From Anaerofustis stercorihominis (GTDB lineage: Bacteria > Bacillota > Clostridia > Eubacteriales > Anaerofustaceae), in the NCBI RefSeq assembly GCF_024623185.1, contig NZ_JANJZK010000010.1:1-64000 (forward strand): DNA of 64,000 bases. Direction: 5' to 3'. The translations under genes and the position numbers were made by a program. Shown here piece after piece: positions 8,932-51,851 of this stretch (within the stretch, counting starts at the first letter, position 1; every line of letters starts with the position of its first letter). The notes beneath the pieces are model-generated. The model saw only the letters and a program-made list of their open reading frames with translations. It made no database searches and had not been told where the DNA came from.

Positions 8932-8961
8932 AAAAAAAGAAGGGGATCCCCTTCTTTTTTA
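8932..8961. terminator. Bidirectional intrinsic terminator
   Basis: A perfect 16-nt palindrome GAAGGGGATCCCCTTC is flanked by an A run and a T run between the converging PBP gene and the minus-strand gene ending at 8959. Confidence 0.85.
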
Positions 8962-9294
8962 CTCTTCCTTAATACCTGTCATCAAGTACATAAGATTTTT
9001 AACGGCTTTTACTTTTTTTCTTGAACAAACACTGGTAGCATAATTAGTTTCTTCGGCTATCTTAACCATACTAATTTTTTCTATATAATTAGATTCAATA
9101 ATATTCTTATCCATATCTTCAAGTGAATCTAATGCACTTTCAAAAAATGAAAGTTCTTTGGAAATCCTATCTCTTTCGTTTAAAATTTCCTCATCTAAAG
9201 AATCCAATTGTTCAAGAAGAGATAATCTTTTCTTTTTAGAATTTACATCTTTTAATTTTCGTTCAAAAATCTTATAATTTTCGCTTTTTGCCAT
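8959..9294 (-). CDS. Small sigma-region-4-like HTH protein
   Basis: This protein of 111 residues is very charged, with a long N-terminal helical part (about residues 1-60, likely coiled coil). Its C-terminal half reads like a sigma-70 region 4 HTH: LEDMDKNIIESNYIEKIS, then MVKIAEETNYATSVCSRKK. Such proteins resemble ArpU-type phage late regulators and short sigma-like factors. No phage genes surround it. Its target is unknown. Confidence 0.6.
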   Translation of the reverse strand: MAKSENYKIFERKLKDVNSKKKRLSLLEQLDSLDEEILNERDRISKELSFFESALDSLEDMDKNIIESNYIEKISMVKIAEETNYATSVCSRKKVKAVKNLMYLMTGIKEE

Positions 9295-9683: not shown

Positions 9684-9715
9684 ATAAAAAAGAAAACCCT
9701 TATGAAAGGATTTTC
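9684..9715 (-). terminator. Intrinsic terminator
   Basis: An imperfect stem (GAAAATCCTTT on the minus strand pairs with AAGGGTTTTC) is followed by a T run. It overlaps the stop codon of the activase-like gene at 9700. Confidence 0.65.
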
Positions 9716-10584
9716 ACATCATCACATATTCTTTTAAATAGGTTTGATATATTTAGTAATGTTTTTCTGTTCGGAGCCTTAAATTCATATTCTCTGATTT
9801 TACCAAGCAGTCTGTACATATATTCATTGGTATTATTATAACCCTTAATGATTATGCCCTCAAGTTCAAGTTTTGAAAGAAGAGATACAATAAGTTTAAG
9901 TTCATCCATATTGCAGTTTACTTCGCTTACGAATGTAACATTTACAATAACCTTCGACATACTGAAGGATACCTTTTTTAAATTTTCTATGATAAGCTCA
10001 TTACTGACACCGGTAAATCTCTTATGTACATCATCATTTACCAAGTCTAAATTATATAAAAAATAATCCGTATAAGGTATCAATTTTTCAAATACTTTAT
10101 AATCGACATAACCGTCTGTCTCTATTGCAACATTGACATCATTTTCTTTTAAAAGCTTAATCACCTCAAGTAAAAAATCAGCCTGCATCAAAGGCTCTCC
10201 GCCTGAAAATGTAACACCTCCCCCGCTTGTTTTATAATACTCCATTTCAGGCATTATTCTGTCAACAAGCTCCTTCGGAGTAATATATTCACCTATCAGC
10301 TCTCTGGCTCCGTTTGGACATGCTTCTACACATTTACCGCACTTTGTACATTCAAATACCTGATGTTCAGCTTCTGCTACTATCCTTTGATTACATGCCT
10401 GTGTACATTTATAGCACATTTTGCATTTTTCTTTATCAAAAAGCATCTCTATATCATTTTCCTGTGCTTCGGGAAATTCGCACCATGGATACTCAAGAGG
10501 TGTACCTTTCATATATACGACGGTCCTAAATCCGGGACCGCACTGAGTGGTATATTTCTCTATTTTATATATTAACCCTTTCAT
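9700..10584 (-). CDS. Degenerate glycyl-radical-enzyme activase-like protein
   Basis: At 294 residues this has the full fold and order of a glycyl radical enzyme activase: an N-terminal GPGFRTVVYMKG, two ferredoxin-type 4Cys sets (C54/57/60/64 and C79/82/85/89), the SAM-binding SGGEP (127-131), and the HKRFTGVS region. The radical SAM motif CxxxCxxC is however T28-x3-Y32-x2-C35, so two of three cluster ligands are gone. The family DxK motif reads N178-L-D180, and the conserved Arg of the RVP segment is N215. It should not cleave SAM normally. The intact relative at 43411-44322 shows what is missing. No glycyl radical enzyme is adjacent, and the role is unknown. Confidence 0.85.
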   Translation of the reverse strand: MKGLIYKIEKYTTQCGPGFRTVVYMKGTPLEYPWCEFPEAQENDIEMLFDKEKCKMCYKCTQACNQRIVAEAEHQVFECTKCGKCVEACPNGARELIGEYITPKELVDRIMPEMEYYKTSGGGVTFSGGEPLMQADFLLEVIKLLKENDVNVAIETDGYVDYKVFEKLIPYTDYFLYNLDLVNDDVHKRFTGVSNELIIENLKKVSFSMSKVIVNVTFVSEVNCNMDELKLIVSLLSKLELEGIIIKGYNNTNEYMYRLLGKIREYEFKAPNRKTLLNISNLFKRICDDVKILS

Positions 10585-10752
10585 TTTATCTCCTTACAGT
10601 ATTATGTTCATTTATTGATTATTATTTTTATTATTAATATCGATCATTAAACATAGATCATTTTCAAAATTATTATTCTTTTATTTAAATTATATTGCAT
10701 ATTCCATACTATTATAATACATTTCGGGAAAATATCAAATAAATTAACTAAA

Positions 10753-11760
10753 CTACTTATTTATTGCAAAAAAATGTTTTAAAATATATTCCATTTCAAA
10801 AAATCTATTACCAGAACTATAAAGTAATAAATGTCTAAAGTCCATATCATATAAATACCTCACCTTTTCTATAATGTCCAGAATATCTTCATTTCCAGCA
10901 TTATTTAAATTAAATCCCGCTACAACTTTATTTTTATCAAAAACAGAGATTTTATTTAAAAATGAAAGATATTCATCCTTTGAAGTATATAAAACATCAC
11001 TTATAAAATTTGGCAAAACAAATACTTTATTTGCATTTTTATTTATAATTTTTATTATTTCTTCATTATTTGAAATACCGGAAAATAAATATTCATCCAG
11101 CAATATATTTGTTTTTATATTTTTGCTGTTCAATATGTCAAAAAGTAAATTTAAATCTATTCCCGCTAAATCATAATATAAAGTAACGTCGTCATAATAA
11201 ATACTTTCAGTTATATTCTTACATATATAATCAGCCAAAAATTCATAAGTATCACATTTTATGCTATTGATAATCAGACTTGTAGAGACTTTATCCACAT
11301 CATGAATCATCCTTAAATAATAGTCCTCTACATACAAGGGAGCATCCTTATTTCCAATCCCATTATACCCAAGTACGGAATTTACATATCGGCTTTCCAA
11401 ATCCAGCTCTATAAAAGCATTGCTCTTTAAATTTAAATCTACAAGAGAATACACTTCAAGATCCTTCTTATGCGTATCTATCCTTAGCCTTATACTCCCG
11501 TCATTAAAACATAAAGGATTTATATTATTTTTATAAATTTCTTCCTTTGAAATATTGAATTTTTTTCCTATGTCTTCCAAATTTTCTTCCTTTCTTTTAA
11601 AATAATAAAAATCATCGATGGGGATTATTATTTTCTGTCCTACTTGGATTTTACTATTCTCATTCATTCGATTTATTTTTAAAATTCTTTCCTTGCTTAT
11701 CGAATACAATTTACATAAATCTTCTATATTTTCATTTTTTCTAAGTATATGAACTAACAT
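10753..11760 (-). CDS. LysM-domain protein with unrecognised C-terminal domain
   Basis: This protein of 335 residues begins at ATG 11760, which has a near-ideal AGGAGG upstream; the extra ten residues from 11790 are not needed. Two LysM domains come first (about residues 1-47 and 51-95, each with the SISKERI or NISKEEI helix and an IIIPI-type end). The rest, about residues 105-335, alternates short strands and helices like the GH18-type barrel of spore-lytic LysM proteins such as YaaH/SleL, but I cannot find the GH18 DxxDxDxE catalytic motif. There is no signal peptide. Peptidoglycan or chitin-type binding is likely; catalysis is doubtful. Confidence 0.7.
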   Translation of the reverse strand: MLVHILRKNENIEDLCKLYSISKERILKINRMNENSKIQVGQKIIIPIDDFYYFKRKEENLEDIGKKFNISKEEIYKNNINPLCFNDGSIRLRIDTHKKDLEVYSLVDLNLKSNAFIELDLESRYVNSVLGYNGIGNKDAPLYVEDYYLRMIHDVDKVSTSLIINSIKCDTYEFLADYICKNITESIYYDDVTLYYDLAGIDLNLLFDILNSKNIKTNILLDEYLFSGISNNEEIIKIINKNANKVFVLPNFISDVLYTSKDEYLSFLNKISVFDKNKVVAGFNLNNAGNEDILDIIEKVRYLYDMDFRHLLLYSSGNRFFEMEYILKHFFAINK

Positions 11761-11773
11761 TTTTCCTCCTAAA

Positions 11774-11810
11774 TAAAAAAGACTACTCATAAATACTTAT
11801 GAATAGTCCT
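11774..11810 (-). terminator. Intrinsic terminator of the hyd-like operon
   Basis: On the minus strand GACTATTCATAA pairs with TTATGAGTAGTC (one mismatch) around a 4-nt loop, followed by a T run. It lies 16 nt after the HydA-like stop codon and just upstream of the LysM gene. Confidence 0.8.
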
Positions 11811-11825
11811 AATATTTTATTTAAC

Positions 11826-13286
11826 TTATTTTGTTATAACAGGTCTTCCTCCTCCGAATTCACACCCTCCTTCGCAAGGAATGACGCAAAGGAAATTGTA
11901 TTCACTTTCACCGTCCAATATTCTTTTAACTTCCTCTTTGGAAGCCTTAAGTCCGTTTACAACGGCACATTTGATTTCCTTACCGTCGGATAAATCAAAT
12001 GAAAATTCTTTGATATTTCCTTTATCATTTTTTATTGACGCTCTTTCACCAAGCCTTATAATAGCATATGCGGTATTTACGCTCAAGAAATATGGATTGA
12101 ATACCCCCGTATAATCCAGGTTATCAAGTGGTTTATTATCAGCCTTGTTCAAATCAATACCGCTTGTTTTAATAAGTTTTGCAAGCTGTCTTGTAGTTAT
12201 CGAAATATCGATACCCGATGTCTCATTGGTTTCGGGGAGAAAAGCTGTACAGTTTTCAACTCTCGTTAAATGAACGTCCTTGTCGATATTCCTGTCCAGA
12301 TAGCCTTCTTTAAACCTAGTATTTATATCCTTTCTTATTTTAGAAAGATTAACAAAAAGATTATCAGCCTCAGGATAAACATCTTCGATTTCTCTACGTA
12401 TGCCGGATGAGCAGGAATAAATCAACGGTTTTCCTTCAAGCATATTTTCTTTAAGCAAATATGCAACGGCATTCATTTCCTTTATCAAATACTCTTCATA
12501 ATCTATTACTTCAGAAAATCCCAGCTTATTTAAAACATCTACGACCTTTGCCTTCATAAGCGCATTATCTACACCAACACCTTTAGCTAACGTTTCATAT
12601 GCACCGTGTGACAATAAACAGATATTATAATATGTATCTTCACCAAGTAAATCGTACAATTCTTCCGTAGTACCTCTCTCAATCAAAGCACCCGTAGGGC
12701 AAACCGTTATGCACTGTCCGCAGCCGATACAATCACTGTGAATGATAGGCATATTGAAAGGAGTTGCAACAGTGGTTTCTTCACTTCTGTTAATAAGTGA
12801 AATTGCTGACGCACCAACCTTATCTCTGCACATGCTGACACATCTGTTACATTTTATACACTTGCTTAAATCCCTAGTAACAGCACTTGAACTGTTATCT
12901 ATCCCCTTTTCGAACTCTGTTTCGAACTCACTTGGACCTGTAAGATATTTATTTGCCATAGTCTGAAGCTTGCAGTTCCCGCTTTTTTCACAAGTCGTAC
13001 ATTCACAGTTATGATTGGCAAGAGTAAGTTCAATTATAGTTTTTCTTATATTTCTAAGCCTTTTGGTATGCGTCTTTACATTCATACCTTCCGCAGCATG
13101 AGTTACACATGCGGGGAATAATTTACCTCCCACATCTACCATGCACATCCTGCATGATGCGGGTCTGTTAAGATCTTTTAAATAGCAAAGTGTAGGGATT
13201 TCAATTTTGGCTTTTTTTGCGGCGTCTAAAATCGTCGCCCCTTCCTTTACTTCTACTTTTATATTATCAACAGTTAAATTAATCAC
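11826..13286 (-). CDS. HydA-like Fe-S subunit with degenerate H-cluster domain
   Basis: This protein of 486 residues has an intact NuoG/HydA N-terminal half: a [2Fe-2S] site (C34, C45, C48, C60), a His-Cys [4Fe-4S] site (H92, C96, C99, C105) and two ferredoxin clusters (C143/146/149/153; C186/189/192/196). The C-terminal half aligns to the [FeFe]-hydrogenase domain but is much shorter. Motif L1, usually TSCCPxW, reads YSC292-S293-SG, so the ligand Cys is Ser. L2, usually MPCTxKK, reads ENC346TAFL. L3 keeps C471EGGC475 and GGGRP. Hydrogen activation is therefore unlikely; electron transfer with the NuoF/NuoE partners is the safer reading. It lies 2 nt after the NuoF-like gene. Confidence 0.85.
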   Translation of the reverse strand: MINLTVDNIKVEVKEGATILDAAKKAKIEIPTLCYLKDLNRPASCRMCMVDVGGKLFPACVTHAAEGMNVKTHTKRLRNIRKTIIELTLANHNCECTTCEKSGNCKLQTMANKYLTGPSEFETEFEKGIDNSSSAVTRDLSKCIKCNRCVSMCRDKVGASAISLINRSEETTVATPFNMPIIHSDCIGCGQCITVCPTGALIERGTTEELYDLLGEDTYYNICLLSHGAYETLAKGVGVDNALMKAKVVDVLNKLGFSEVIDYEEYLIKEMNAVAYLLKENMLEGKPLIYSCSSGIRREIEDVYPEADNLFVNLSKIRKDINTRFKEGYLDRNIDKDVHLTRVENCTAFLPETNETSGIDISITTRQLAKLIKTSGIDLNKADNKPLDNLDYTGVFNPYFLSVNTAYAIIRLGERASIKNDKGNIKEFSFDLSDGKEIKCAVVNGLKASKEEVKRILDGESEYNFLCVIPCEGGCEFGGGRPVITK

Positions 13287-13288
13287 TT

Positions 13289-14539
13289 TTATTCCTCCCT
13301 CTTAAGTGCATTTTTGAATTCTTGAGAAAAATTCGTATACGCACTGATAAACGGAATTATTTGAGTTTTGCCGCTGCCGCATAAAGAAGCGTCAAGGGCA
13401 TTTACTATTCTTACATAATTTTTAAGATCCGCTAACGTTCCTTGTTTTATCTTAAATCTATCCATTATTTTCTTTAGTTGTCTGTTACCTTCCCTGCATG
13501 GAACGCATTTACCGCAGCATTCATGAAAGAAGAAATCTTCAACGACAGATAAATAATCTATTACACCGTCATCTTCATCCGCTACTACGATTGCTCCCGA
13601 ACCGATATTTCCTTTTACTTTCTTCATACCGTTATAAGTATAAGGGATATTTAATTTTTCATATGGTACTATTACTCCGCTTGCCCCTCCGATTTGTACA
13701 AATTTAGCTTTTTTACCGCCTTTTATACCGCCTGCGATTTTTATTATATTTTGTACGGTGGTTCCGAACTCAACTTCGTAAACTCCCGGATGTTTGACTT
13801 TTCCGCTTACACATACCATTTTTGTTCCCGGACAGTCTTCCACTCCGTATTTAAGCACACTTTTAAAACCATTTTGCATCATAGTTGCTATGACACTTAC
13901 GGTTTCCACATTTATAACAAGAGTAGGTTTATTATGAAGCCCGCATTCCTTTACGTAAGGCGGTTTACTCCTTGGTCTACCGCTCTTTCCTTCAATACTT
14001 TCGCACATGGCAAAACCTTCACCGCAAACATAAGACCCGCCTCCTGAAAATAAAGACAAGTCAAAATCAAACCCGCTCGATAGGATATCCTCACCTAAAA
14101 ATCCTTTGTCATAAACCTGCTTGATTGCAAATTCGATGTCTTTATGCATGAAAGTATATTCTTCTCTTACATATATATAGCCTTTATTTGCTCCCGCACA
14201 AAATGCAGAGATTATTATACCTTCTATGACTTTATATATCCCGTTTTGAAGAAGATATTTATCTTTAAATGTTCCGGGTTCACCTTCGTCGGCATTACAT
14301 AAGATATATCTGTCCCCTGTCCCTTTAGCTTCTCTTGCCTGAGCAAGTTTTACTCCGGTTGGATAATTTGCACCGCCTCTGCCCTGAAGTCCGCTGTCTG
14401 AAACATTTTGAACGGTTTTCTCATATCCTTGAAGTATAGCTTTTTTAAGTCCCTTAAAACCGCCTCTTTTTATGTATTCATCTATATTAAAACCGTCATA
14501 AGTCCCATAGTCTTTTGTGATATATTTTACCGTTCCCAT
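13289..14539 (-). CDS. NuoF/HydB-like flavoprotein subunit (short form)
   Basis: This protein of 416 residues matches the NuoF core: FMN site GRGGANYPTGVK, CNADEGEPGTFKDK, SLBB-type middle region, and a C-terminal [4Fe-4S] site (CCGKCVPCREG plus SLCGSGKT). It lacks the N-terminal thioredoxin-like [2Fe-2S] domain and the C-terminal ferredoxin domain found in bifurcating HydB. The usual CGEETAL stretch near the NADH site reads CGEGFAM, so the second Glu and the Thr are changed. It would oxidise or reduce a nicotinamide cofactor for the complex, but cofactor use is uncertain. Its ATG overlaps the stop of the NuoE-like gene (TAATG), implying translational coupling. Confidence 0.87.
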   Translation of the reverse strand: MGTVKYITKDYGTYDGFNIDEYIKRGGFKGLKKAILQGYEKTVQNVSDSGLQGRGGANYPTGVKLAQAREAKGTGDRYILCNADEGEPGTFKDKYLLQNGIYKVIEGIIISAFCAGANKGYIYVREEYTFMHKDIEFAIKQVYDKGFLGEDILSSGFDFDLSLFSGGGSYVCGEGFAMCESIEGKSGRPRSKPPYVKECGLHNKPTLVINVETVSVIATMMQNGFKSVLKYGVEDCPGTKMVCVSGKVKHPGVYEVEFGTTVQNIIKIAGGIKGGKKAKFVQIGGASGVIVPYEKLNIPYTYNGMKKVKGNIGSGAIVVADEDDGVIDYLSVVEDFFFHECCGKCVPCREGNRQLKKIMDRFKIKQGTLADLKNYVRIVNALDASLCGSGKTQIIPFISAYTNFSQEFKNALKREE

Positions 14540-15021
14540 TATTTAGCCCCCCTCAGCTTAGATAACAAAGCTTTTATTTTTTCTTCGTTCAATCTTCCGA
14601 CCACATTATCATTCACTCTTACCGCAGGAGCTATATCACATGCACCGAAACAAGGCACAAGTTCGAGAGTAAATAATCCGTCCTCTGTGGTTTCACCTTC
14701 TTTTATCCCAAGTTCTCTTTCAAAAATTTCTTTTATCTCATCTTTGCCGTTTAAACTGCAAGATGTCGCATTACAAAGACCAAGAATATATTTCCCTCTT
14801 TTTTTAGTACTCAATGCGTCAAAATAAGTAACGACTTCAGAGACATTACTTAGTGGGATTTTCATTTCATCTGCTATGTATTTTGCAATATCGAAATTTA
14901 TAAATTTCCCGGGGATCTGTCTTTGTATTTTCAAAACTATCTGCAGTAAATCAGATGGATTATTGTCATAATATTCAATGATATTTTTACATACCTTTTT
15001 AATTTCTTCTGGTAACTTCAA
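14539..15021 (-). CDS. NuoE/HydC-like [2Fe-2S] subunit
   Basis: This protein of 160 residues has a helical N-terminus followed by a thioredoxin-like [2Fe-2S] fold. Candidate ligands are C in LGLCNATSCSLNG (two Cys five residues apart) and LVPCFGACDIAPAV (two Cys four residues apart), the normal NuoE pattern. It is the first gene of the three-gene operon and passes electrons between the flavin subunit and a partner. The promoter lies in the 190-bp gap shared with nfo. Unlike the other two subunits it looks orthodox. Confidence 0.9.
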   Translation of the reverse strand: MKLPEEIKKVCKNIIEYYDNNPSDLLQIVLKIQRQIPGKFINFDIAKYIADEMKIPLSNVSEVVTYFDALSTKKRGKYILGLCNATSCSLNGKDEIKEIFERELGIKEGETTEDGLFTLELVPCFGACDIAPAVRVNDNVVGRLNEEKIKALLSKLRGAK

Positions 15022-43410: not shown

Positions 43411-44322
43411 TTAACCTCCTATTTGACACTCTAAACCATTTTCTTCAAACATCTTTAAAATACTATTCATTTGATCATCTTTAGGAGGAGTTATATCTTT
43501 TAGTTCATACTCCTTTTTTAAAACTTCGTATTTATATAAACCAAGTCTATGATAAGGAAGTAAATTCACTTCATATTTATTTTTTAAACTCTTTATAAGC
43601 TTTATGATATATAACATATCTTCTTTGCTGTCATTTAAAGAAGGTATGACAGGAACCCTTATAATGATATTTTTATTATGTTCATCAAGATATCTTAGAT
43701 TATCATGGATTTTATTATTGTCCACTCCCGTCAGCCTTTTATGTTTATCATTATCGACAGCCTTGATATCAAACAAAAATAAATCCACATACTTCATTAT
43801 TTTATTGATATTTTCTTTACTAACATATCCCGTCGTTTCGATTGCCGTATTTATATCACGGGATTTTAATCTCTTTAAAATTTCATATGCCGCTTCAAAC
43901 TGAAATAAAGGTTCTCCTCCCGAAAGAGTTACTCCTCCCTTTGAGGTTTCATAAAAAATTTTATCTTCCATACATTTAGTAATGATTTCATCTATGGATA
44001 AATTTTTGCCATATACTCTAAGAGCAGTAGCGTAGCAGTTATCTACACACAGCATACATTTAGTACACTTATCCTCATTTATATTTATACCTTCTTTATC
44101 AACGGTTATTGCACCCTTGGGACAAACTTTTTTGCAGTTCAAATCTCCGATACATTTATCTTTAAAATAAACGATTTTAGGTTCTAATAATTGTGATTCG
44201 GGATTTGCACACCATGGACATCTTAATGGGCAGCCTTTTAAAAATACAACCGTCCTTATACCGGGACCGTCATGTATACTATATTTTTGTATATCAAATA
44301 TAACAGCCGATTTTTCTCCCAT
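43411..44322 (-). CDS. Glycyl radical enzyme activating protein
   Basis: This radical SAM protein of 303 residues has the intact motif GPGIRTVVFLKG followed by CPLRCPWC. A ferredoxin insert with two [4Fe-4S] sets (CIGDLNCKKVCPKGA and CTKCMLCVDNCYATA), the SAM-binding SGGEPLF, LFDIKAV with D and K, and the RVPVIPSLND Arg are all present. It removes a hydrogen atom from the glycine of its partner, clearly the enzyme at 47312 in the same operon. It starts 5 nt after the DUF362 gene. The degenerate relative is at 9700-10584. Confidence 0.95.
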   Translation of the reverse strand: MGEKSAVIFDIQKYSIHDGPGIRTVVFLKGCPLRCPWCANPESQLLEPKIVYFKDKCIGDLNCKKVCPKGAITVDKEGININEDKCTKCMLCVDNCYATALRVYGKNLSIDEIITKCMEDKIFYETSKGGVTLSGGEPLFQFEAAYEILKRLKSRDINTAIETTGYVSKENINKIMKYVDLFLFDIKAVDNDKHKRLTGVDNNKIHDNLRYLDEHNKNIIIRVPVIPSLNDSKEDMLYIIKLIKSLKNKYEVNLLPYHRLGLYKYEVLKKEYELKDITPPKDDQMNSILKMFEENGLECQIGG

Positions 44323-47311: not shown

Positions 47312-49696
47312 CTATAATTCATATTCCATTCTGCTTATTATGTCGTCCTGAGTAATTTTGTCCAAAGAAGTAAATAAAGCACTATATCCTGCAACCCTTA
47401 CAACTAAATCTTGATATTTCTCGGGTTCTTTCTGGGCCTTGATTAAAGTATCCGTGGATATCATGTTAAACTGAACATGCCATCCGTTCTTCTTGAAAAA
47501 TGCTTCTATCAGTGCATAGAATTTTTCTTCATCTTTTTTAGTCTTTACCGTAGTCGGATTAAATCTCATATTTAAGAGCTGTCCTCCGGTCATCTTTCTT
47601 GTTTCCAATTTGGAAACAGAATTGATAACACTGGTCGGACCGTTTTTTTCTGTTCCGTGCATAGGCGACACGCCTTCCGCAGTAGGTTCTTCATCTTTTC
47701 TTCCGTCGGGAGTCGCACCTACTTTTGCTCCGTCGGGAACATTTGAAGAAATAGTAACGGTGGAAGGAATGAACATACCCCCTATAGGACCTCTGCCAAA
47801 TCTGGTATTTTTATATGAAGCTATATTATCTATGTAAGGCTTATAAATCTTTACGACCATATCATCCGCTTCATCATTATCATTTCCGTATTTATCTATT
47901 TTGTTTTGAAGAAGCAGCCTTATTTTTTCTCCTTCGATACCTTCATAATTGCTTCTTACAGCATTTTGAACATCTTCCAAAGTCAGCAACTTATCTTCAA
48001 AGACAGCTTTCTTTAAAGCATATAGAGAATTACCTACATTAGGTCCTCCGACCAACGCTCCGCTTATCATATCGTAAACGGCACCGCCTTCTTTTATGGT
48101 CTTTCCTCTTCCTATACAGTCCTCTACAAGCCCCGAGCAAAACGCATCCGGAACAAGCTCTTCCATAGCAATGTCATTGATATTATCCGCAGTGACCTGA
48201 AGACGCATATAATGTATCATTGCTTTACAGTAAGCTTCATACACTTCATCAAAATCAGTAAACTTTGTAAATTCGGGAATACCTTTTATTGTCTTGATAC
48301 CGCTTTTGGGATCTACTCCTCCGTTTAGTGCAATTTCCATTATTTTTAAAACATTTACTTTAGTCTTACCGTTCGCTCTGTATCCCCATTTACCAGGAAC
48401 CTGAACTTCAAGACAACCCATTGTGGAATAGTCATAAGCGTCTTCTTTGCTCACACCCCTATCGATTAAAGAATTTATGATAACATCATCATTTACAAGA
48501 GCCGGCATACCAAATCCCATTTTTATAACTTTTATCATTAAATCCACAAAATCTTTAGGCATATCTTCATGACACCTTATATAAAAGTTAGGTTCGGATA
48601 ATTTGATATCTCCCAGAGCTTCGAGGAGTATATACGACATTTCATTCAAATCACTTTCTCCGTCTATATTCTTCCCGCCTATAATAATATTTTGATATGT
48701 AGGATATCCGGCAACAAACCTCGTGTGAGACCAAGGTCTTATCTTTATTACTGTGAATAGTTTTAAATAAAAACACTCTATATATTCTTTTGCTTCATCT
48801 CTGTTTAAAATCCCTTTATCGATATCTCTCTTGTAAAACGGATAAATATATTTATCTACCCTGCCCATCGACATTGAATGACCGTTTGCTTCTATCTGAG
48901 AAATCAGCTGAACGAACCAAAGGAGCTGAACCGCACTTTTGAAAGTTGTAGGAGGATTATATTCAATATTTTCTATAGTTTTCTTTATTTGCTTTAGCTC
49001 CTTCTTCCTCTGTTCATCCTTTTCTATAATAATTTTCTCCTGAAGCAAATCTATATATCTTTCAACAAATTCGCTTGAAGCGGAGTATACTATTTTTACA
49101 GCCTTATAAAAAGATACTTTTCTTAAATCATCAGGGTCGGTATAGTCAAGGTTTAAAAGTTTATCGTCGGCTTCATTTACTATACCTCTGAATCCAACTT
49201 TTAACACTTTTTCAAAGTCCATGATTATATGTCCTTCTCCGGCTGTTACATTTCCCTCCCAACCGAGGACTCCGACTTTTTTATCTTCCAAAACTTCTTT
49301 TGTCTGAGTTTTGAGAACTCTGTCTTTTAGTGTCATACCTTTCCATAAAGGTAATATTTCTCTCATTATTTTTTTATTTTCTTCGCTTACATAAAAGACA
49401 TCGCTTGGTCTTTTTTCAAATTCATCTATTTCTTTAAAAATCCAGTCCCAAGAATATTCGGGAAACAACGGAGCTCTTCTGATTCCCGAGGATTGATTGC
49501 CTATGATGAGCTGTTCATCTTCCAGATAAATACTCATATTAAGAAGTATATCTCTAAGTGACAATGCTCTTTTTACTATGATAGGTTCATCTTTGTATTT
49601 TTCATAAGACTCCGTTATTATTCTCAGTCTCTCGGTACATACTTCAGGTTTTACACTGACCACACTTTTCTTGATTTTTTTGATTCTGTCATTCAT
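47312..49696 (-). CDS. Glycyl radical enzyme (PflD/YbiW-like eliminase)
   Basis: This protein of 794 residues starts at ATG 49696. It has a ten-strand barrel with the active-site loop STMGC428-L-E430, followed by PGKWGYR, and the C-terminal glycyl motif RVAG770Y. Cys-x-Glu rather than the Cys-Cys of pyruvate formate-lyase indicates an eliminase (dehydratase or C-X lyase type). The PGKWGYR signature recalls the uncharacterised PflD/YbiW branch. The activase at 43411 and PTS genes follow in the same operon, so the substrate is likely a phosphorylated polyol or sugar acid. Its start overlaps the regulator's stop by 8 nt. Confidence 0.93.
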   Translation of the reverse strand: MNDRIKKIKKSVVSVKPEVCTERLRIITESYEKYKDEPIIVKRALSLRDILLNMSIYLEDEQLIIGNQSSGIRRAPLFPEYSWDWIFKEIDEFEKRPSDVFYVSEENKKIMREILPLWKGMTLKDRVLKTQTKEVLEDKKVGVLGWEGNVTAGEGHIIMDFEKVLKVGFRGIVNEADDKLLNLDYTDPDDLRKVSFYKAVKIVYSASSEFVERYIDLLQEKIIIEKDEQRKKELKQIKKTIENIEYNPPTTFKSAVQLLWFVQLISQIEANGHSMSMGRVDKYIYPFYKRDIDKGILNRDEAKEYIECFYLKLFTVIKIRPWSHTRFVAGYPTYQNIIIGGKNIDGESDLNEMSYILLEALGDIKLSEPNFYIRCHEDMPKDFVDLMIKVIKMGFGMPALVNDDVIINSLIDRGVSKEDAYDYSTMGCLEVQVPGKWGYRANGKTKVNVLKIMEIALNGGVDPKSGIKTIKGIPEFTKFTDFDEVYEAYCKAMIHYMRLQVTADNINDIAMEELVPDAFCSGLVEDCIGRGKTIKEGGAVYDMISGALVGGPNVGNSLYALKKAVFEDKLLTLEDVQNAVRSNYEGIEGEKIRLLLQNKIDKYGNDNDEADDMVVKIYKPYIDNIASYKNTRFGRGPIGGMFIPSTVTISSNVPDGAKVGATPDGRKDEEPTAEGVSPMHGTEKNGPTSVINSVSKLETRKMTGGQLLNMRFNPTTVKTKKDEEKFYALIEAFFKKNGWHVQFNMISTDTLIKAQKEPEKYQDLVVRVAGYSALFTSLDKITQDDIISRMEYEL

Positions 49697-51851
49697 TCTT
49701 ATCACTCTCCTCACATATTTGTTTAATATATTTTGATATTTCCTTTTTAGACTTAAGTGAAATTAAAGTTGAAAAATTATCTTCATTAACGGCAAACTTT
49801 CCAAGATCCGAAAGAGCCCTTAAATGAGTATGATTATCAACGGCACAAAGTCCGAACACCGCCTTTACCGGATCGTTGTTTTTATTACCGAAATTTATGG
49901 GATTATTTAATATCACAAGACTCATTGCAACTTTCAATGCTCCGTCTTCAGGTCTCGCATGGGGTAAAGCGATCCCCTTTGTTATTACTATATATGAACC
50001 AAGTTCTTTGACGGTATCGATCATTTTATCAACATACCCGTTTTTGGCACATTTGGTATCCACCAATAGTCTCCCGGCCTCCCTCACCGCGTCCTCCCAA
50101 TTTTTTGCGTCATAAAATGAAATTCTCTTTTCGTCAATCAACTCCGATAGCATAGGTAAAATCTCCTCTCCTGTATTGTTGTTATCTATTAATATTTCAT
50201 ATAAAACATTTTTAAATTTAATTTCATCTAAATTAGTACTGTTATCTTTTGCTGCTTTTACAATTATGTCTATTTTTTTATCTAAATCACCAAGTATTTC
50301 ATAGTTTGGAACTACCCTTTTTATATCAAGGAAATCTTCTATTTTTTTTATATCTTTACTATCAAGTAAAGGCGTTACCTTTATAATAGGAATCTCGGTT
50401 TTTATATAAGTATCTATGGTTGAAATGATTACATCTGCTTTTTTATATTTGGAAGCATCGAATATTGATATTTCTCCTATGATTTCTATCATAGGGAATT
50501 CTCTTTGTATCCTGCTGGAAAGCATTTTGGAAGTCCCGAGACCGCTAGCACACATGGTTATTGCTTTTATCTTTTTATTTTTAATAACTCTGGATTTCTC
50601 TAAACTTGCCCCGATATGCATCGTTATATAAGCTATCTCGTCATCAGGGATATTATCTATATCATATTTTTCTTTTATGATAAAACATGACTTTTCCACC
50701 GCCGAAAATATATCCATATATTTTCCTTTTATGGTATCCAGTATGGGATTTTCAATCATTAAAGAATTTTTAAGCCTTGATATTGCCGGTTTTAAATGAA
50801 CAGTCAAGTCTTTTATCAAATCATCGATATACTTATCATCAATACTTTTATTTAAAATCTTCTGAACGTTATCTATGATTTTTATTACAACTTCTTTTAA
50901 CCCTTTGTCATCATTTGCCAAAATAAAAAATCTTCTTGCCCCCATAAGATGTATGGTTATATAGCCTATTTCTTCATCGGGAATATCAATATCGAAAATG
51001 GTATTTAAATACTTAGCAAAACTTTTGGAAACAGGATATTCATCTTCATTTTTAAGCTGCTCAAGCTGTTCATTCGACATTAAAATCTTGTTCCCGTTTT
51101 TAAGCCTTTTCATTGCTATTGCTAGATGTATCAATAAAGATACATAACTGGAATCATCAAATTTTGTTTCAAGTAAATCTTCTAAATAAGAAATCGAATC
51201 TATGATTTTAAATAAATCGTCTTCATCAAATAAAGCTTCTTTATATAGCGGAAGAATGTAATTGGTGGGGTTTAAATAATTATCGTCACTGTCATTGGAT
51301 ACTTTATGAAGAAGACTGTAAAAGTAACCTCGGTGTTCTTTGTTATTGCTTAATTTTATTACCGCCTTTCTCCATCTGTTTTCCGAACAATTTAACAGTA
51401 TCCCGTAATTGGTTTTACTTATAACATTTATACCTTGTTCATCGAACCATTCATAAACCTTTTTCATAGTCTTATTCAAAGAACTTCTGCTTACGTAAAG
51501 TTCTTCGGCTATGGATGAAATCGTTATTGGTTTATTTGCCGTTAGAAGTTTTATAATTATATAATTAAACCTGTCTTCTTCCGTAAGATAAACATCCGTA
51601 ACCGCAAAATTATTTATCTCTTCTTTTAACTTGAATATATCTTCTTCTTTTATATTTAAAATAAAATTTCCATTTCTATCTTTATCTATAAAAGCATTGA
51701 TACTTTTAAGAAAATAATTTATATTATCAATGTCATATCTTATCATTCTTTCCGATACCTTGAATTTATTTGTCAAATCCGATATTTTGATACCTTTATC
51801 GGCTAACATCAAACTTTTGAGTATCAATAGTTCTCTTCTTTTTAGAAACAT
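49689..51851 (-). CDS. PRD-type PTS-regulated transcriptional regulator with EIIB and EIIA domains
   Basis: This protein of 720 residues has two N-terminal HTH domains (about 5-55 and 90-130), two PRD domains (about 185-400), a Gat-type EIIB domain with CASGLGTSKML (about 430) and an EIIA-type domain (about 575-720) with the phosphohistidine in ITKGIALPHARPEDG. The plan is that of MtlR/LicR activators, which are controlled by PTS phosphorylation. It heads the glycyl radical operon and overlaps the next gene. As it carries the only EIIA, it might also feed the IIB of this system. Confidence 0.92.
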   Translation of the reverse strand: MFLKRRELLILKSLMLADKGIKISDLTNKFKVSERMIRYDIDNINYFLKSINAFIDKDRNGNFILNIKEEDIFKLKEEINNFAVTDVYLTEEDRFNYIIIKLLTANKPITISSIAEELYVSRSSLNKTMKKVYEWFDEQGINVISKTNYGILLNCSENRWRKAVIKLSNNKEHRGYFYSLLHKVSNDSDDNYLNPTNYILPLYKEALFDEDDLFKIIDSISYLEDLLETKFDDSSYVSLLIHLAIAMKRLKNGNKILMSNEQLEQLKNEDEYPVSKSFAKYLNTIFDIDIPDEEIGYITIHLMGARRFFILANDDKGLKEVVIKIIDNVQKILNKSIDDKYIDDLIKDLTVHLKPAISRLKNSLMIENPILDTIKGKYMDIFSAVEKSCFIIKEKYDIDNIPDDEIAYITMHIGASLEKSRVIKNKKIKAITMCASGLGTSKMLSSRIQREFPMIEIIGEISIFDASKYKKADVIISTIDTYIKTEIPIIKVTPLLDSKDIKKIEDFLDIKRVVPNYEILGDLDKKIDIIVKAAKDNSTNLDEIKFKNVLYEILIDNNNTGEEILPMLSELIDEKRISFYDAKNWEDAVREAGRLLVDTKCAKNGYVDKMIDTVKELGSYIVITKGIALPHARPEDGALKVAMSLVILNNPINFGNKNNDPVKAVFGLCAVDNHTHLRALSDLGKFAVNEDNFSTLISLKSKKEISKYIKQICEESDKNE

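Follow-up and report, generated by a model that had tools for sequence, protein, structure and literature searches.

The window analysed here, a stretch of 64,000 nucleotides from Anaerofustis stercorihominis, carries on its minus strand, at 9700..10584, a gene for a protein of 294 aa that is homologous to glycyl radical enzyme (GRE) activases and whose radical SAM site is dead, as assigned from a TIGR02494 match and a motif alignment. The start codon is ATG, with the ribosome-binding site AAGGAG immediately 5' of it, and this site is conserved in the Anaerofustis species compared. A promoter-like site, TTGATA-16-TATAAT (10711..10738, minus strand), is located 127 bases ahead of the ATG and is kept in three species, with diverging flanks. 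Judging from these signals, the gene may be transcribed on its own. A terminator-like hairpin lies over the stop codon (9692..9715, minus strand) in the window species, and is not clearly conserved. Upstream on the same strand are genes for a LysM protein and for three HydABC-like subunits. Much farther away, at 43411..44322 (minus strand), an intact ferredoxin-type activase paralogue is found downstream of a GRE gene (47312-49714), with two genes between them.

Altered motifs and predicted fold

The TIGR02494 profile scores 252.6 bits against the protein (cut-off 174.35), which places it in the family, and its score is far under every functional equivalog cut-off. In the alignment, the former CxxxCxxC reads T-P-L-E-Y-P-W-C (T28-x3-Y32-x2-C35; codons 28-35, 10480..10503), the former DxK reads N178-L179-D180 (codons 178-180, 10045..10053), and the former Arg of RVP is Asn (N215; codon 215, 9940..9942), all on the minus strand. 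The ferredoxin insert, residues 46-98 (10291..10449, minus strand), contains two intact CX2CX2CX3C motifs, and all eight ferredoxin Cys are present in the 294-aa ORF together with the GGEP loop. These losses, and the retention of both ferredoxin clusters and of the GGEP loop, had been described in an earlier sequence-only reading, and every residue named there is as stated. Further losses had not been named. The former His of PYH is Asn (N250; codon 250, 9835..9837, minus strand), the motif having become GYN, and both GRE-peptide anchor positions are altered. PflA Asp16 and Asn38 anchor the glycyl loop peptide (PMC9326890); their equivalents are now Cys (C15; codon 15, 10540..10542) and Phe (F37; codon 37, 10474..10476), again on the minus strand. 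With such a set of residues, the protein would be expected neither to bind the radical SAM cluster nor to cleave SAM. The paralogue at 43411-44322, which the same reading had taken as an internal control, can serve as one, with CPLRCPWC, DIK, RVP and PYH all intact. It has Asp for the second Cys of the first ferredoxin cluster motif (CIGDLNCKKVC). The GRE at 47312-49714 (minus strand) belongs to the PFL2/glycerol dehydratase-like subfamily (851 bits to TIGR01774) and scores under every equivalog cut-off.

The AlphaFold2 model of the protein (five sequences) has a pLDDT of 71, and its ferredoxin insert is poorly modelled (below 50). The top match by Foldseek is PflA (8fo0; E 1.3e-17), and VIA-align superposes the model on 3cb8 with a Z of 26.0 and an rmsd of 2.6 over 240 aligned residues, whereas other radical SAM folds reach a Z of about 16. 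The radical SAM partial barrel is thus common to the window protein and PflA (3c8f, 3cb8 and 8fo0; VIA Z 24-26), but PflA has no ferredoxin insert and its active site is intact. As modelled, the scaffold is the activase barrel minus its chemistry, and the protein would fold as an activase scaffold holding two [4Fe-4S] clusters. With the ferredoxin-type GRE activases (TIGR02494; the HypD, CutD, HpsH, Hpad and IbsAE activases) it shares full-length homology, the two CX2CX2CX3C motifs, GPGxRT, GGEP and the PflA fold, but it lacks their Cys triad, DxK, Arg, anchor Asp and Asn, and adjoining GRE. The two motifs and the proposed function are also common to 2x[4Fe-4S] ferredoxins and polyferredoxin-like domains, whereas here the motifs sit inside a large inactive radical SAM barrel.

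Orthologues and purifying selection

The orthologous clade occurs in only four of the 67 genomes of the order, namely the window genome (G000), G002, G001 (NZ_SPHL01000036.1, A. stercorihominis 1001271st1_D3, listed as 100% complete) and G004 (CAMSGF010000168.1, an uncultured Eubacteriaceae MAG of a sister genus, fragmented and 84% complete). Identity to the window protein is 95% for G002, 67% for G001 and 45% for G004. In the tree, the three dead forms are monophyletic (bootstrap 99) on a long stem branch of 0.72 substitutions per site, and G004 is their sister (bootstrap 100). The dead form is known from three Anaerofustis species, two of which are close.

At the altered sites, G002 does not differ from the window protein (T/Y/C), while G001 has S, I and G at the Cys triad, H-F-N at DxK and Ser for Arg. 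Consequently, the close homologues with shared losses that the sequence-only reading had proposed to look for do exist, G002 having the same substitutions and G001 having lost all three Cys. In the G004 orthologue (L014 142-1068, minus strand), however, the alignment shows an intact catalytic set: CPLSCAWC, DIK, RIP and PYH. The GRE anchors are lost throughout the clade, with C or N for Asp16 and F or H for Asn38 in the dead forms, and S and T in G004.

When the dead-clade profile was run against 371 genomes of the class, the next best match fell from 612 to 232 bits. A search of 398 genomes of the phylum gave nothing at E <= 1e-64 besides the window genome, and no relatives were found in viral contigs. 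In a search of genome contigs, the orthologue alignment matched G001 and G004, whereas a single-protein query matched none. No other pseudo-activase is present among the 27 best-scoring class-level relatives, though rarer independent cases may exist beyond these. In 27/27 of these nearest activases, the Cys triad, D, K and R are present, as are the anchor Asp and Asn, and each has a GRE within about 1.5 kb, whereas no GRE adjoins the pseudoenzyme gene in the window or in the G001 and G002 contexts.

The gene is under purifying selection. Between G000 and G002 dN/dS is 0.041 at a dS of 0.55, which lies within the values of its neighbours (0.01-0.15); against G001 it is 0.15-0.19, slightly higher than in the neighbours (0.05-0.14), with frames intact over a dS above 1. 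No stops or frameshifts occur in the orthologues, in agreement with the earlier statement that frame and overall length are intact. A sequencing error or local decay is excluded by the dN/dS values and by the independent genome G002, which carries identical substitutions at a dS of 0.55. It had been said that homologues with intact Cys at the same locus in close relatives, together with signs of decay, would speak against a retained pseudoenzyme; such a homologue exists, but only in the sister genus, and the signs of decay are absent.

Constraint is unevenly distributed along the protein. Among 40 columns that are invariant in 16 intact activases, the dead clade keeps 32 and changes eight, among them every one of the six catalytic positions (Fisher p = 7e-6). 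At the catalytic columns, each of the two lineages has drifted to residues of its own (T/S, Y/I, C/G, N/H, D/N and N/S). By contrast, each of the seven ferredoxin Cys that are invariant in the 16 intact activases is kept in the dead clade, and all eight are invariant across the four orthologous sequences. The ferredoxin insert is the most conserved part of the dead forms, while in real activases it is less conserved than the rest; the insert/rest identity ratio is 1.18 in the dead clade, compared with a mean of 0.79 and a maximum of 1.04 in 104 activase pairs, which are not independent, so that the ratio is descriptive. Therefore, selection seems to have moved from the barrel to the insert.

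Possible roles of the retained protein

We conclude, with a probability of roughly 0.6, that the gene encodes a pseudoenzyme found throughout the genus and descended from a ferredoxin-type GRE activase, which would still serve in electron transfer, or make redox contacts, by way of the two [4Fe-4S] sites of the ferredoxin domain. That it is a retained pseudoenzyme had already been suggested, and the shared losses in close homologues, the purifying selection and the absence of decay bear this out. Electron transfer via these two sites is, as far as the alignments go, the best reading of which residues are kept. Other uses of the scaffold, such as ligand or protein binding, are possible, because GGEP, GPGxRT, W34 and H187 are kept in the dead clade as well. 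Of the two roles proposed earlier, the electron carrier fits the data, and the G001 genome disfavours a role in regulating a real activase.

Regulation of GRE activation, in which the protein would compete with or stabilise a real activase, or dock on a GRE, deserves attention since a regulatory effect on active paralogues is known for many pseudoenzymes (review, PMC10211241), and the window genome also has a real ferredoxin-type activase and GRE. In G001, however, the gene is kept although the only GREs, PFL and NrdD, are each paired with a small activase of their own, and no ferredoxin-type activase besides the pseudoenzyme gene was found in this genome. A regulator of the real ferredoxin-type activase is therefore unlikely as the conserved role. 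With both GRE-peptide anchor residues lost and no GRE next to the gene, we regard regulation in any of these forms as unlikely. A counterpart of the 47312-49714 GRE was also sought in G001 and was not found; partnership with that GRE was accordingly rejected as a general role. The clusters could instead be purely structural, in a protein that acts as a scaffold or folding partner. Fold-defining residues are indeed kept throughout, but it is the insert and not the barrel that is most conserved, and this possibility seems to us decidedly improbable.

An active enzyme whose cluster site has been relocated or is non-cysteinyl, or one with another ligand in its GGEP pocket, would account for the invariant GGE motif and the invariant structural core of the pocket, and some SAM-cleaving Fe-S enzymes have non-canonical Cys motifs, for example Dph1-Dph2. 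Yet no relocated CxxxCxxC is present, only two Cys outside the ferredoxin insert are common to the three orthologues, which form no alternative cluster, and the SAM-contacting D, K and R are replaced, with different residues between species. Continued activity of such kinds is hence doubtful in much the same degree as regulation. Finally, the differing drift of the active site in two lineages and the long stem branch are what might be expected of a decaying gene caught before the loss of its frame. This is already contradicted by a dN/dS of 0.04 over so long a divergence, by the frames intact at still larger distances, by the invariant ferredoxin Cys and by the conserved promoter-like and ribosome-binding sites, and we give it hardly any credence.

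For the electron-transfer pseudoenzyme, the G004 orthologue suggests an order of events, in which the GRE partner was lost first and catalysis second, because in G004 the radical SAM site is whole, while a GRE neighbour and both anchors are missing. The missing GRE neighbour is weak evidence, since it concerns a 3.1-kb contig of the fragmented MAG. In the first step, the lineage would have given up its GRE partner and kept radical SAM chemistry on another substrate or on none, the state seen in G004, whose intact site is probably ancestral and which, from its motifs, may be a radical SAM enzyme acting on a new substrate. In the second step, Anaerofustis would have lost the radical chemistry. 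A surviving orthologue with a catalytic site would thus make it possible to put the stages of the loss of catalysis in order.

The gene represents a branch of pseudoenzymes within an established family; our search of open-licence papers found no description of a radical SAM or GRE activase pseudoenzyme. In most GRE activases there are auxiliary [4Fe-4S] clusters, the function of which is stated to be unknown (PMC11528403; also PMC10239695), and activation by IbsAE did not need their full reconstitution (PMC10239695). A natural protein without the radical SAM site but with a selected auxiliary domain separates the two functions, so that the domain can be studied alone.

The HydABC-like module and other neighbouring genes

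The HydABC-like genes, all on the minus strand, encode a HydA-like subunit with a divergent H-domain (11826..13286), which is a candidate electron partner, a HydB/NuoF-like FMN subunit (13289..14539) and a HydC/NuoE-like subunit (14539..15021). Of 13 family genomes, the same four contain both these genes and the activase-like gene; this is weak evidence, since the four are related to one another, and in G004 the HydABC-like genes and the activase lie on different contigs. This NADH module is the best candidate for a partner of the pseudoenzyme, as a candidate only. Since a conserved promoter-like site of its own precedes the pseudoenzyme gene, the operon link and the adjacency to the HydABC-like genes are weak evidence for joint function. 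A more specific and rather unlikely proposal would be that the activase was converted, in two steps, into a dedicated electron-transfer subunit of the module, the hydrogen site of which has diverged. If so, the auxiliary clusters of an activase could live on alone as an electron relay.

The divergent HydA-like subunit is found in two genera, at 11826-13286 in the window, at 11599-13059 in L012, at 13333-14793 in L046 and at 20-793 in L048, and each such genome has a normal HydA elsewhere. Its L1 motif has changed from TSC[CS]PGW to YSCSSGI or YACSPGI, its L2 motif from MPCTAKKFE to ENCTAFLPE or ENCTALLAE, with loss of the Lys, and its L3 motif from EIMACPGGC to CVIPCEGGC, while the H-domain Cys appear to be kept. 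A loss of an H-cluster Cys in the SCSS of L1 was considered and rejected, as TSCSP occurs in 27 of 34 normal HydA sequences; the remaining changes concern the L1 Trp, the L2 Met-Pro and Lys, and other positions of L3.

The LysM protein (10753..11790, minus strand), the upstream neighbour of the pseudoenzyme gene, has a GH18-like barrel without DxxDxDxE and resembles SleL/YaaH (LysM plus GH18 barrel), with a VIA Z of 13.2 to 4s3j and top matches that are nearly all GH18, for an AlphaFold2 model that is poor (pLDDT 50.6). The strand that should carry DxxDxDxE reads DxxTxYxD. If the tentative GH18 reading of this model is right, the protein is probably a dead glycosidase. In G004, a homologue of the C-terminal domain of the LysM protein is encoded two genes away from the activase. 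The HydA-like and LysM genes are separated by a conserved hairpin with a T run (11779-11810, minus strand), which has substitutions on both sides of the stem in G001 and is a probable terminator or attenuator. On the other side of the pseudoenzyme gene, a gene of 111 aa (8959-9294, minus strand), weakly similar to DUF1492 and sigma-70 region 4, adjoins it in all three Anaerofustis genomes. The HydA-like, LysM-GH18-like and activase-like genes, spanning 9700-13286 on the minus strand, all have altered catalytic motifs, and all are under purifying selection.
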